Of a stretch of 64,000 nucleotides of DNA, positions 17,567-58,891 are shown one piece after another. Position 1 is the first letter of the stretch; each line of letters begins with the position of its first letter. Position numbers and translations under genes: made by a program. The notes below the pieces were generated by a model. The model had not been told where the DNA came from, did no database searches, and saw only the letters and a list, made by a program, of their open reading frames with translations. Origin of the DNA: Candidatus Peribacteria bacterium (GTDB taxonomy: Bacteria > Patescibacteriota > Gracilibacteria > Peribacterales > Peribacteraceae); the NCBI GenBank assembly GCA_023245935.1, contig JAHFJM010000001.1, forward strand, positions 310,001-374,000, read 5' to 3'.

Positions 17567-17606
17567 TAAATTATTTTATAATATTTTCTCTATCACAGCA
17601 TCCGGT

Positions 17607-17722
17607 CCTCACCCCTAACCCCTCTCCTTCTGTAGGAGAGGGGTAACTCGTGCTTCTCCGAATACGGACATTCCTCTCTTCGCCGCAGCGGAGAGAGGTG
17701 GCGCATCAGCGCCGGAGTGAGG
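17607..17722. mobile_element. 116-bp hairpin element (MITE-like), related to DUF559-flanking repeats
   Basis: Bounded by CCTCAC and GTGAGG. Inside are hairpin 1 (CCCCTCTCC...GGAGAGGGG), a linker that includes ACTCGTGCTTCTCCGAATAC, hairpin 2 (CCTCTCT...AGAGAGG) and hairpin 3 (GGCGC...GCGCC). It has no coding capacity. The same arrangement occurs at 58758-58875, and its left half flanks the DUF559 gene at 54043. It sits between the 137-residue gene and amt. Confidence 0.8.
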
Positions 17723-17726
17723 ATTG

Positions 17727-18923
17727 CTATTCATACGCCTCCTCTCCATGCAACACTTTGTCTATCATCTGCTGATCGTGAGGATCAACCGTGATCTTCA
17801 TGCAGGCTTTCATGATCAGAAGAAGGACGTACGTTGCGACGAAGGCGTAGACGACGGAGATTGCAGTGCCTTCGAGGTTCGAGATGAATTGTGCGGGATT
17901 GCCTTCGAGCAGCCCTGAGAATCCTCCGACTTCTTTCGCTGCGAAGACGCCGGTGAGGATCGAACCGACGATGCCGCCGATGCCGTGGCAGCCCCAGACA
18001 TCGAGCGCGTCATCCCATTTCATGGCAGCGCGGAATTTCATGGCGAAGAAGCAGGCGACAGCGGCGACAACGCCGATGATCATCGCTCCGATTGGTTCCA
18101 CGTATCCCGCTGCCGGCGTGACGGCGACCAGTCCGACAACGGCACCGACGAGGGGTCCGACCACGCTCGGTTTTCCGTCGACGATCCACGCGAGGAAGAG
18201 CCATGCGATCATCGCAGCAGCAGGTGCGACCTGCGTATTCACGAATGCCGCAGCCGCCTGACCGTTTGCGGCAAGTGCGCTTCCCGCATTGAAGCCGTAC
18301 CAACCGAACCAGAGCAGTGCAGTGCCGAGAGCGACGAACGGAATATTATGCGGGCGAACCGACGTCTGTTGCCTTTTCCCGAACACGAAGACCGATGCGA
18401 GTGCCGCCATGCCCGCGCTGATGTGGACGACCGTTCCTCCAGCGAAGTCGATGGCACCGAGCTTCGCGATGAACCCCCCGCCCCACACCCAGTGCGCAAG
18501 CACGGCATAAACGACGATGCTCCAGAGAATCAGGAAGACGAGATAGGCTTTGAAATTCATGCGATCGACGAATGCCCCTGTAATGAGCGCCGGAGTGATC
18601 ACGGCGAACATCATCTGGAAGACGAAGAATGCCAGAAACGGCACTTCGGGACCATACACGGTTGATGGCGTGAGACCGACACCGTGCATGAAGGCGAATT
18701 CCAGACTGCCGATGATGCCGTTCACGTCACTGCCGAATGCGAGTGAGAACGTGAGGAGGGACCAGAGGACGGAAACGATTCCCATTGCGATCATGCTCTG
18801 CATCATCACGGTCAGGACATTGTTGCGTTTCACGAGCCCTCCGTAGAAGAAGGCGAGTCCGGGTGTCATGATCGCGACGAGGCCGGATGAGAGGAGGACG
18901 AAGGCAGTGCTTCCTGAGTTCAT
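17727..18923 (-). CDS. amt: Ammonium transporter (Amt/AmtB family)
   Basis: An 11-helix channel that brings NH4+/NH3 into the cell. The N-terminal helix pair has GLVAIMTPGLAFFYGGLVKRNN, and the ADFAGG-like signature appears as IDFAGGTVVHISAG. The twin His pore positions are in YAVLAHWVWG and WGCHGIGG. At 398 residues it is a full-length AmtB core, without the cleaved signal seen in E. coli. ATG 18923 fits the family start; the longer reading frame before it lies in word-repeat DNA. It is 107 bp downstream of glnA on the same strand. No glnK/glnB gene is adjacent, which is unusual for amt. Confidence 0.94.
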   Translation of the reverse strand: MNSGSTAFVLLSSGLVAIMTPGLAFFYGGLVKRNNVLTVMMQSMIAMGIVSVLWSLLTFSLAFGSDVNGIIGSLEFAFMHGVGLTPSTVYGPEVPFLAFFVFQMMFAVITPALITGAFVDRMNFKAYLVFLILWSIVVYAVLAHWVWGGGFIAKLGAIDFAGGTVVHISAGMAALASVFVFGKRQQTSVRPHNIPFVALGTALLWFGWYGFNAGSALAANGQAAAAFVNTQVAPAAAMIAWLFLAWIVDGKPSVVGPLVGAVVGLVAVTPAAGYVEPIGAMIIGVVAAVACFFAMKFRAAMKWDDALDVWGCHGIGGIVGSILTGVFAAKEVGGFSGLLEGNPAQFISNLEGTAISVVYAFVATYVLLLIMKACMKITVDPHDQQMIDKVLHGEEAYE

Positions 18924-50736: not shown

Positions 50737-50798
50737 AATGTAGAATTTAGAATGTATAATGTAGAATTACTGTCATTCTACATTCTTCATTCTACATT
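50737..50798. repeat. Word repeat with inverted copies (AATGTAGAAT / ATTCTACATT)
   Basis: Two to three direct copies of AATGTAGAATT and two inverted copies ATTCTACATT. The inner pair can form a 10-bp hairpin with a 7-nt loop. The same word lies at 13957-13984. Confidence 0.7.
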
Positions 50799-54021: not shown

Positions 54022-54040
54022 TTGATTTGCTTCTCACGGT

Positions 54041-54083
54041 CCTCATCCCCCGTCCCCTTCTCCATCGGCTGGAGAAGGGGTGA
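54041..54083. repeat. Terminal half-repeat of the DUF559 unit (left)
   Basis: CCTCATCCCCCGTCCCCTTC and the bases up to GGGGTGAC form the same hairpin as the left end of the 116-bp element. The C-terminal codons of the DUF559 protein (TPSPADGEGDGG) lie in it. Confidence 0.75.
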
Positions 54084-54501
54084 CTTCAGTTATACAAATT
54101 TTAGGGATATGAATAATTTCTTCTGAAATTTTTTGTAAAACATTCGATAATTCTTCAAGAACTTCTTCGTTTTTGAAACGAATCACACGATATCCGTATA
54201 CGTTGATGATGTCCGTTCGCAGTTGATCGTATTCCTGCTGGGTTTCATGAACTCCGCCATCGACTTCAACAATCAATTTGTGTTCTTTACATAGAAAATC
54301 AGCGATGAACTGCCCGATGGTATCTTGCCTCTTCCATTTCGTACCCAATAATTTTCTATTTCTCAACTCCTGCCACAAAACATGTTCCGCACGCGTGAGA
54401 TTCTTACGCAAGTCTCTCTTGAATTTAAGTTTTTCTCTGTGCCGAAGAGCCTCACTTATACGCATAAGGATGAGTCTATCAGACATTTCTACTCTCTTCA
54501 T
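54043..54501 (-). CDS. DUF559-domain endonuclease (Vsr-like), copy 1
   Basis: A 152-residue protein of the DUF559 family, related to very-short-patch-repair and other PD-(D/E)XK nucleases. Core: LTRAEHVLWQELRNRKLLGTK, FIADFLCKEHKLIVEVDGG (the D and ExD positions), H near residue 105, then YRVIRFKNEEVLEEL. The gene is bracketed by inverted half-repeats (54041-54083 and 54507-54559). Its stop codon lies inside the left one, and its 5' region continues into the right one. Start could be ATG 54501 or 54486. Substrate unknown. The arrangement, TIR-nuclease-TIR, looks like a mobile unit. Confidence 0.85.
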   Translation of the reverse strand: MKRVEMSDRLILMRISEALRHREKLKFKRDLRKNLTRAEHVLWQELRNRKLLGTKWKRQDTIGQFIADFLCKEHKLIVEVDGGVHETQQEYDQLRTDIINVYGYRVIRFKNEEVLEELSNVLQKISEEIIHIPKICITEVTPSPADGEGDGG

Positions 54502-54506
54502 ACTTG

Positions 54507-54559
54507 GAGAAGCACGAGTCACCCCTCTTCGCCTCAGCGGAGAGGGGATGGGGGTGAGG
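54507..54559. repeat. Terminal half-repeat of the DUF559 unit (right), overlapping the tig stop
   Basis: Inverted relative to the left copy: GGAGAAGCACGAGTCACCCC, hairpin, then GGGGATGGGGGTGAGG. Reading on the minus strand, its first 26 bases supply the last codons and the stop codon of trigger factor. Confidence 0.75.
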
Positions 54560-55835
54560 ATTGGATCATTCCTTCCACCAACTTCTGCATCGTCTTCTCC
54601 CATTTTATGCGTTCATACGCCGAGCCGCCCTCTTTCTGATCCTCATCTGACAGAGGATGCCTGTGCTCCTTGGCATGTGCGATTTCGGCTTTCATCGCGA
54701 GGTGGATGTCGGTCGGGTCGACGTCGATCTTCTTCGCTTCCGCGAGCGCCTGCATGCCGAAGCGCAGCACGATGCGACTGTTTGCGATTTCTTTCATCTC
54801 ATCGATCACGGCTTTCTGATCTTTGTTCGTTGATTTCAGCCATTCTTCGACCGTCGTGTTCTGCTGCTTGAGGCGCTCCTGCAAATCGAAAACCATCTCC
54901 TGCACTTCCGCGTCGACGAGCTCCGGTGCGAGGTCGATCTTCGTTGCCGCTTTCACTTTTTCATAGAGCTCTTCCTCACGACGTTTCATCTCCTGACTTT
55001 TTCTCTGATTCGTCAGCATGTGTCCGATCTCTTTCCGAAGCGCTTCCGGCGTTCTTTCCGCTCCGAGACGCGACTTGATGTATTCCGTATTGAGTTCGGG
55101 CAGCTTCACCTCCGCGACGTCGGTCGCTTCGAGATCGATCGTCACTTTCTTTCCGCGAATTGCCGGAATGTCGTGATCTTTCGGGAATTCGATCGTTGCA
55201 GTTTTCTTGTCGCCTTTCTTCATGCCAAGCACGTGCGGCTCCAGCTCCGAGAGCAGATCTTCGTGCCCGAGCAGAATCGCATAACGACCGACGGTGAGTT
55301 CGTCGATCTGCTTTCCCGATTTGTCTTTCGCAGCCATGCTGAGTTTCACGCTGTCTCCCTTCTTCGCTTCGCGATCCACAGGCGTTTCGATGCTGTCCTG
55401 CATCAGCAGTTTCCGGAGGAAGTCTTCGATGTCTTTCGGTGTCGCGTCAGCGATCGTTTTCTTCTCGACTTTGATGCTGTCCGGCTTTCGCAGTTCCGCC
55501 GTCGGACGTTCGACGAAGACGATGCTGATCGTGAGAGGATCGAGCGAGACGACGCCGGCAGCCGGACGGATGATCGGTTTTGCTTCGCTGAGTTTCAGTG
55601 CATCTTTCATCACCTCCGGCAGGATTTGGCGAACGGTCTCCTCTGAAATGTGCTCTGGCTTCACTTGTTCACGTACGAGATGTGCCGGAGCCATCCCCTC
55701 GCGGAATCCCTTGATGTTCACGCGGTGTGCCAGTGCCTTGAGCGCACGGTCTTCCGCGGATTTCTTTTCCTCAGCCGAAACGACGGTGGTGGTTTTGATG
55801 CGGGCTTGTTTCAGTTTCTCAACCGTTGTTTCCAT
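54534..55835 (-). CDS. tig: Trigger factor (ribosome-associated chaperone/PPIase)
   Basis: Binds the ribosome exit site and helps new chains fold. The N-terminal ribosome-binding domain contains KGFREGMAPAHLVREQ (GFRxGxxP signature). The FKBP-like PPIase domain lies at about 155-245 (GDSVKLSMAAKDKSG, LLSELEPHVLGMKKGDKK). The C-terminal arm helices fill 250-425. Length (433) is typical. The last residues SSPPSPLR and the stop are coded by the DUF559-unit repeat, so the original C-terminus has been replaced. The ATG follows AACTCTCCCACTCGCC. secF lies upstream on the same strand. Confidence 0.93.
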   Translation of the reverse strand: METTVEKLKQARIKTTTVVSAEEKKSAEDRALKALAHRVNIKGFREGMAPAHLVREQVKPEHISEETVRQILPEVMKDALKLSEAKPIIRPAAGVVSLDPLTISIVFVERPTAELRKPDSIKVEKKTIADATPKDIEDFLRKLLMQDSIETPVDREAKKGDSVKLSMAAKDKSGKQIDELTVGRYAILLGHEDLLSELEPHVLGMKKGDKKTATIEFPKDHDIPAIRGKKVTIDLEATDVAEVKLPELNTEYIKSRLGAERTPEALRKEIGHMLTNQRKSQEMKRREEELYEKVKAATKIDLAPELVDAEVQEMVFDLQERLKQQNTTVEEWLKSTNKDQKAVIDEMKEIANSRIVLRFGMQALAEAKKIDVDPTDIHLAMKAEIAHAKEHRHPLSDEDQKEGGSAYERIKWEKTMQKLVEGMIQSSPPSPLR

Positions 55836-58414: not shown

Positions 58415-58798
58415 ATGGATAATGCAAAACCTCTCTACGATTTTCGTAAATTAGAACTGAAAAGGGCGCTGCGGAGGCAACAAACACCTACTGAAAAGGT
58501 TTTATGGGAGGCGTTGCGCAATAGAAAATTGCAAGGCATGAAATGGAGAAGACAGGCGAATATTGATATCTACATTGCAGATTTTCTTTGTGTGGAGCAT
58601 CGGCTAATAATTGAGGTAGATGGGGGAATACACGATGGTCGACAGGAGCAAGATCATTTGCGAACAGAAGTCATCGGAGATCATGATTACAAAGTGATTC
58701 GTTTCCGCAACGAAGAAATTCTTCAAGGATTGCCGGAGGTATTGCGTCGCATTACAGCCCTCACCCCCAGCCCCTCTCCAACGATTGGAGAGGGGTGA
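58415..58798 (+). CDS. DUF559-domain endonuclease (Vsr-like), copy 2
   Basis: A 127-residue relative of the gene at 54043: TPTEKVLWEALRNRKLQGMK, IYIADFLCVEHRLIIEVDGG, H near residue 82, YKVIRFRNEEILQGL. Its final residues ALTPSPSPTIGEG and stop codon are coded by the first hairpin of the 118-bp element that follows (58758-58875). No repeat copy is found upstream, unlike copy 1. TAGAAT (58401-58406) ends 8 nt before the ATG. The two copies are clearly homologous but not identical, so they did not arise by a very recent duplication. Confidence 0.88.
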   Translation: MDNAKPLYDFRKLELKRALRRQQTPTEKVLWEALRNRKLQGMKWRRQANIDIYIADFLCVEHRLIIEVDGGIHDGRQEQDHLRTEVIGDHDYKVIRFRNEEILQGLPEVLRRITALTPSPSPTIGEG

Positions 58799-58875
58799 CT
58801 CGTGTTTCTCTGAGTACGGACATTTCTCTCTCCAGATCGCTGGAGAGAGATGTCGCTTCAGCGACAGAGTGAGGG
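58758..58875. mobile_element. 118-bp hairpin element (MITE-like), second full copy
   Basis: CCCTCAC...GTGAGGG ends, hairpin CCCCTCTCC/GGAGAGGGG, a linker with ACTCGTGTTTCTCTGAGTAC, hairpin CTCTCTCCAG/CTGGAGAGAG and a third TCGCTTCAGCGA hairpin. It is about 80 percent identical by eye to the copy at 17607. It overlaps the 3' end of DUF559 copy 2. Confidence 0.8.
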
Positions 58876-58891
58876 CTGTTTTCGGAGATGA

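Follow-up and report, generated by a model that had tools for sequence, protein, structure and literature searches.

The stretch of DNA analysed here (64,000 nucleotides, hereafter the window) carries a small DUF559 gene between two inverted half-repeats, which raises the question of whether gene and repeats form one mobile unit and whether the encoded nuclease is what spreads the repeats. The original prediction described this bracketed gene, a second DUF559 gene ending within a hairpin element and a third, gene-less copy of that element, and noted that the stop and last codons of both genes fall within the repeat; all of this was confirmed.

DUF559 genes and hairpin elements in the window and its genome

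DUF559 gene 1 (54043–54501, minus strand; PF04480, E 9.4e-37) encodes 147 or 152 aa, depending on whether the start is taken at 54486 or 54501, and is flanked by half-repeats of ~40 nt each at 54041–54080 and 54522–54559. The left half (plus strand), which is the 3′ end of the unit in gene sense, reads as a head (CCTCATCCC), a linker and a 10-bp stem with loop and holds the stop of the gene, while the right half (minus strand), a head and hairpin forming the 5′ end of the unit, is its inverse. The whole unit (54036–54567, minus strand; locus L001, converted coordinates) is delimited by its homology with the genome's second unit and stands between a gene of the relA/spoT type and one for trigger factor. 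DUF559 gene 2 (58415–58798, plus strand; 127 aa; PF04480, E 4.5e-35) ends inside a full element on its 3′ side (58754–58879, plus strand; alignment row L025) made of two inverted halves with the outer stem ACAGCCCTCAC/GTGAGGGCTGT; no half-repeat was detected within 260 nt upstream of its domain (locus L003). The translations of the two genes finish inside the repeat as VTPSPADGEGDGG and LTPSPSPTIGEG, each followed by the stop, with ORF ends at 54043 and 58798. The gene-less full element lies at 17602–17727 (plus strand, outer stems counted; alignment row L023), and its spacer is identical to that of the DUF559 unit at 20/26 positions. Imperfect inverted repeats of AATGTAGAATT-type sequence are also seen at 50737–50798 and are unlike the hairpin element.

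The genome to which the window belongs (1.22 Mb, 8 contigs) has three DUF559 genes, all three at repeats, and the stem arm CTCACCCCNNNCCCCTCTCC occurs in it in 26 exact copies, with 4 more at two mismatches and 9 at three. This proximity of DUF559 and repeat is beyond chance; a reversed-pattern control for the arm count is invalid because the arm itself is nearly a mirror repeat. From 30 arm loci, after setting aside 4 without the end motif, 2 DUF559 units and 2 odd cases (L013 and L022), 22 full inverted hairpin pairs were obtained, of which 21 are gene-less and one is the element at gene 2.

Comparison of the window unit with the second unit (contig C5, 115 kb) gave 82.7% identity over 533 alignment columns. 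The homology runs from GATCCAATCCTCACC to GGGGGATGAGGACCGT, that is, from the outer end of one half to the outer end of the other; beyond these columns one half briefly matches the inverted other and nothing else aligns, and the genes around the two units are unrelated. The nuclease of gene 1 and its paralogue (G000:C5:115702) are 88% identical with a dN/dS of ~0.06, a rough value since synonymous sites are near saturation (pS 0.56), which indicates that selection has maintained the nuclease since the two copies diverged.

The gene-less elements are related to these units. The 26-nt non-hairpin spacer after the unit's 5′ hairpin is common to 14 of the 22 elements at 16/26 identity or better, a level reached by 5e-5 of random places, and 2 of the remaining 8 match the 3′ end of the unit at 43/45 (identity at this level with the window unit's 45-nt 3′ end is found in elements L021 and L028). 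Because they have spacer or end in common with the unit, many gene-less elements resemble units that have lost their interior. No target-site duplication of at least 3 bp was found at any of the 22 elements when no shift was allowed; with shifts of up to 2 bases there were three duplications of 3 bp (2.05 expected) and one of 4 bp (0.14 expected). We favour the reading that the DUF559 gene and its inverted halves form one mobile unit of ~530 bp, that many of the 116–150 bp pairs are its non-autonomous derivatives and that the nuclease drives their spread, and put its probability at about 0.6.

Fold and triplex code of the half-repeats

Each half is built from a head, a short linker, a stem arm, a loop and the complementary arm. 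An alignment of 19 full elements supports three inner hairpins enclosed by an outer stem. In this structure 94.6% of cells are paired, as against 48–61% with the partners slid, and both sides have changed in 12 of 36 stem pairs, as against 7.4 in shuffles, where the structure model was taken from one aligned sequence, which favours the paired percentage and, to a lesser degree, the double changes. The linker between head and stem measures 3 nt in 141 of 176 halves and is sometimes replaced by a small hairpin (L041, L094, L110, L120 and window H3, 58852–58865); in the window's own genome this linker hairpin shows compensatory changes (helix 4 of the alignment). Tandem runs of similar short hairpin pieces stand beside the half-repeat at the DUF559 loci L064, L068, L074 and L089.

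The head mirrors the stem arm. Over the 176 halves a mean of 7.05 of 8 positions agree, compared with 6.39 after shuffling (z 15.7), and the direct-repeat control gives z 1.25; with one half per distinct arm (41 halves) the mirror z is 7.9 (0/1000 shuffles) and the direct z 2.1. Opposite the 313 arm T positions the head has T in 206 cases, A in 86, C in 14 and G in 7, and opposite arm C it has C in 1034, T in 30, G in 17 and A in 7. Reverse-Hoogsteen pairing allows G.GC, A.AT and T.AT, so that an arm T with a head A amounts to T opposite A on the other strand. The halves thus show the pattern of a class II purine motif, with a third block that mirrors the arm and has A or T opposite A, and each half can be read as carrying a purine-motif fold-back triplex code. 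A canonical G-quadruplex could form in 105 of the 176 halves, yet the 71 without such a motif obey the mirror rule as well (z 10.1); a G-quadruplex is thus not needed to explain the symmetry, though one may still contribute to it. Judged by their base order, the window halves are predicted intrastrand-triplex motifs, a point that the original prediction had missed.

The repeat itself is already known. Holder (2015; PMC4666352) described it as an intrastrand triplex motif (TM, TMECO) in more than 260 genomes, and the parts of that paper considered here report a stable triplex of the E. coli motif in vitro and in solution, with a stable triplex in vivo unsupported; citing Hoyne 2000, they trace triplex repeats back more than two decades, to the earlier PIT motifs of Hoyne and Maher. 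Entries of its Table 1 such as CCCTCTCCC-loop-GGGAGAGGG-TTA-GGGTGAGGG correspond to the half found here, the motif is likewise of the class II purine type, and five inverted pairs are given for E. coli MG1655. Archaea have related repeats, with a fold of triplex or G-quadruplex type, according to the portion of PMC8044849 considered.

One of the E. coli copies is of direct interest here. Copy 9 of Table 1 (1,351,204–1,351,239, from the same part of PMC4666352) lies 168 bp from ycjD (1,351,407–1,351,760), which is the DUF559 gene of E. coli K-12 (PF04480, 167 bits) and has an apparent degenerate half at its end. As ycjD stands beside one of the 23 triplex motifs of K-12, the link between DUF559 and the repeat is testable in this strain. 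Of 5,426 E. coli genomes, 3,364 carry the gene with a coverage of 80% or more, and 2,061 have no near match to it. A clean empty ycjD site was sought without success: the two ycjD-free strains examined both carry efflux genes beside fabI, a larger replacement. The literature searched, mostly open access, yielded no paper linking DUF559 to the triplex repeat and, at the level of titles and the beginnings of abstracts, no report of a tested DUF559 activity.

Association of DUF559 with the repeat across bacteria

The flanks of DUF559 genes were examined with an automatic detector at 111 loci, namely 3 from the window's own genome, 29 best matches from its phylum and 79 from many phyla, the last being the best 80 of at least 531 confirmed matches minus L067, a duplicate of L034. 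Because the loci were drawn from best matches, the sample leans towards close query matches. Covering 260 nt on either side of the domain, the detector found a half-repeat upstream in 101 loci and downstream in 103; 93 have halves on both sides and all 111 on at least one, compared with 364 of 2273 control windows from the same loci. (An earlier detector, which found halves on both sides in 83 of 112 loci, was replaced after nine misses had been inspected, some with a hairpin linker or an ambiguous stem.) In the 71 loci scored automatically for orientation, 46 have the heads facing in, 11 have them facing out as in the window and 14 are mixed. The two halves within a locus differ at 3.6 of 16 positions, as against 5.3 between loci (71 loci). 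The expectation that the repeat covaries with the nuclease held weakly overall (Mantel r 0.22 and 0.17) and within the window's phylum reached 0.15 and 0.09, but elsewhere it was not borne out, the correlations (0.03 and 0.05) not being significant.

Hairpins near both ends of a gene, with the upstream one often some tens of bases from the domain, could also serve as terminators or attenuators and so insulate the nuclease gene. We regard this as very improbable: many copies lie away from any DUF559 gene, the halves are mutually inverted in 57 of the 71 scored loci, and the E. coli motifs had neither promoter nor terminator activity in earlier work as cited in the part of PMC4666352 considered.

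Repeat number was compared with the presence of DUF559 among genomes by means of the pattern CTCWCCCN{3,5}CCCTCTCC, which covers one branch of the repeat sequences and includes the copies flanking DUF559. The phylum sample of 239 genomes contains 58 with a DUF559 match (in 15 of these, partial or weak matches only), 38 with the repeat pattern and 29 with both. Genomes with at least three copies have DUF559 in 22 of 24 cases, compared with 36 of the 215 others (Fisher p 1.6e-13), and when only full-length DUF559 is counted the figures are 21/24 and 22/215 (p 2e-15). Likewise, in 274 genomes of Gammaproteobacteria, with a DUF559 cut-off of E 1e-15 or better, the gene was found in 37 of 58 repeat-rich genomes and in 23 of 216 others (p 1e-15). 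These statistics count genomes rather than independent events, and kinship is considered through within-group comparisons only. Within the window's family, two DUF559-free genomes have 0 copies and six others 5 to 27; in genus g28, three genomes with DUF559 have 15, 32 and 18 copies and the one without has 0. In Microbulbifer (48 genomes), DUF559 was matched in 12 genomes and at full length in 4. Copy numbers in these four are 12, 68, 1 and 195; among the remaining 44, numbers of 52, 9 and 5 occur once each and all other genomes have at most one copy. Repeats that were equally frequent with and without DUF559 would have spoken against the original prediction, and the two samples (239 and 274 genomes) left the association standing.

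The association is not complete in either direction. DUF559 was not detected in 2 of the 24 repeat-rich phylum genomes and in 21 of the 58 repeat-rich Gammaproteobacteria; 16 genomes of the latter sample have at least five copies with no DUF559 found, and the pattern is missing in 13 of its 60 DUF559 genomes. The richest genome of the phylum sample (G068, 70 copies) has a partial DUF559 match only, and the Microbulbifer genome with 52 copies (G316) has none detected. Conversely, 15 of 43 genomes with full-length DUF559 lack the repeat pattern; other repeat sequences fall outside it. An E. coli control strain gave no match in the family search, although YcjD of MG1655 scores 167 bits against PF04480; either this strain lacks ycjD or the search misses genes, and absences of DUF559 are therefore not certain. 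Repeats with no full DUF559 found were noted in G299, G316 and G323, in G372, G374, G420 and G600, and in G143 and G145. Such genomes may have lost the nuclease recently, or the repeat may have another carrier.

Y1_Tnp (PF01797), the Y1 HUH transposase, is the enzyme of RAYT and IS200. It has 0 matches in the window's own genome and occurs in 113 of the 239 phylum genomes, with no significant link to three or more repeats (14/24 versus 99/215, p 0.29) and a weak trend at one copy or more (23/38 versus 90/201, p 0.08). RAYT was consequently rejected as mobiliser for the window's own genome, and in the phylum sample its presence is not significantly linked to repeat number. The likeness drawn by the original prediction, of a nuclease paired with palindromic repeats in the absence of a transposase, is strongly supported as a pairing and reaches far past the genome in which it was noticed.

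Insertion sites, the predicted nuclease and known systems

Presence and absence of the unit could be followed at two sites. In one genus of Gastranaerophilales a DUF559 unit lies in frame inside PriA, directly before the Walker A motif; PriA from 11 of 13 genomes comprises 4 filled and 5 empty alleles, one collapsed to joined ends and one with a piece of one end. In Microbulbifer, where 31 of 48 genomes yielded nuoJ and 29 nuoI–nuoJ regions were read, 4 regions are filled, one has hairpins without the gene and 24 are without an evident unit, one of which (L219) may hold a degenerate hairpin. Empty sites were among the checks proposed with the original prediction; filled and empty alleles were recovered at both sites, but the exact junction of the unit is unreadable because the empty alleles have diverged. 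With two homologous units of exact ends at unrelated loci, and presence and absence at PriA and nuoI–nuoJ, the earlier idea of a mobile unit is supported. In-frame units were seen in PriA and in a zinc-peptidase-like gene of Gastranaerophilales (L073, 7281–9926; L122, 7191–9941; L082, 7734–8855), with the host frame open, and several further strong DUF559 matches lie in open frames of ~400 to 1240 codons. The open frame of L073 contains PriA domains together with DUF559; in the two fusions, L073 with PriA and L082 with the peptidase, a search for an intein family found none at E 0.001, the matches being to DUF559, related or host domains.

The model of the DUF559 protein (pLDDT 87) is predicted to have a homing-type nuclease fold. 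Its best structure match is 3hrl, a putative endonuclease-like protein of Neisseria (E 1.2e-8, 40% identity), followed by the homing endonuclease I-Bth0305I (3r3p, E 2.4e-4) and then Vsr (E 8.5e-3). Vsr-like homing endonucleases of the I-Bth0305I type belong to the EDxHD family. A role in defence was considered and set aside, the window protein having no PADLOC family except a marginal DpdF (E 0.007).

With I-Bth0305I as the nearest solved fold after 3hrl, the repeats might be the target of a homing nuclease rather than its product, such that DUF559 cuts gene-less pairs, repair copies the gene into the spacer and the repeats multiply by other means. The position of the gene in the spacer between inverted halves fits this, as does the coexistence of empty and filled alleles within a genus. 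Against it, the empty PriA and nuoI–nuoJ alleles are mostly without an evident repeat and repeat number follows DUF559; the unit spacer in 14 of the 22 elements of the window's genome fits internal deletion, although a gene inserted at the centre of such a pair would produce the same pattern. We think homing unlikely and retain the mobile unit as the preferred reading.

Recent insertions were sought in Microbulbifer by comparing 40 repeat regions of G257 with ~1.98 Mb of G316, species 95–96% alike at the nuoI–nuoJ locus, and a counterpart was found for 19 of the 40. A clean insertion of a 123-bp inverted pair in G257 (L231, 605–727, contig C1) ends in GTAACTAC terminal repeats and, relative to G316, is accompanied by a duplication of 8 bp (GATTTGGC), which makes a classical transposase look likely for that copy; the ends and the length of the duplication presumably recall IS66. 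The insertion at L237 has one GTAACTAC end. Several solitary halves of G257 have other small repeats at the same place in the sister genome, and G316 holds a gene-less remnant at a site where G257 has a DUF559 gene.

Such cases suggest that halves and pairs could be spread by other transposases, for example as a MITE with GTAACTAC ends, or by triplex repair errors, with DUF559 as cargo. The Microbulbifer insertion with its 8-bp duplication, the solitary halves in the places of other small repeats and the instability around the motif published in PMC4666352, as far as the part considered goes, all point in this direction. The same gene family is nevertheless bracketed in many phyla, the 22 elements of the window's own genome have no target duplication, and Y1_Tnp, the sole transposase family examined, has no significant link to the repeat, so that we rate a mere passenger role for the gene as decidedly unlikely.

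Returning to the mobile unit, we infer that the folded repeat is the substrate of the nuclease and is mobilised by it. The Vsr-/I-Bth0305I-like enzyme would recognise the hairpin in its folded state, whether extruded or in single-stranded DNA at replication forks, and would nick at the head or nearby; as the break is repaired, either the unit or a gene-less pair could be copied to a new site with no target duplication, and gene-less pairs would relate to the unit as MITEs or REPINs do to their transposase. DUF559 is a strong candidate for the missing enzyme of a very widespread bacterial repeat. A wider proposal makes DUF559 the enzyme of a further class of mobile elements beside DDE and HUH/Y1, one that would read the triplex fold of its own ends and spread itself, also in frame in priA, along with gene-less hairpins (the TM/PIT motifs of E. 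coli, cyanobacteria and many others); this we hold tentatively and with some doubt. If true, the DUF559 family, whose function is unknown, would gain a candidate role, the triplex repeats a candidate spreader and intramolecular triplex DNA a natural protein partner.

Set against known systems, the halves match the motif of Holder (2015) as described above and the difference lies in the gene: the motif was published without a mobility gene, the part of PMC4666352 considered reports no mobility-giving activity around the E. coli sites, and its main text lacks the words "nuclease", "endonuclease" and "DUF". The predicted domain fold is shared with I-Bth0305I and Vsr-like homing endonucleases, but DUF559 differs in being flanked by triplex-type hairpins, with no intron seen and no intein family in two in-frame cases. 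As in MITEs, gene-less copies have their ends in common with a coding unit; unlike MITEs of DDE transposons, they show target-site duplication in 0 of 22 elements of the window's genome, with one Microbulbifer copy having 8 bp. The REP/REPIN system with RAYT (TnpA-REP), whose REP head is of GTAG type, likewise has short hairpins, often in inverted pairs, that are tied to one small nuclease gene and have gene-less copies more numerous than the gene, whereas the enzyme here is Vsr-like and not Y1 HUH, and the head mirrors the stem.
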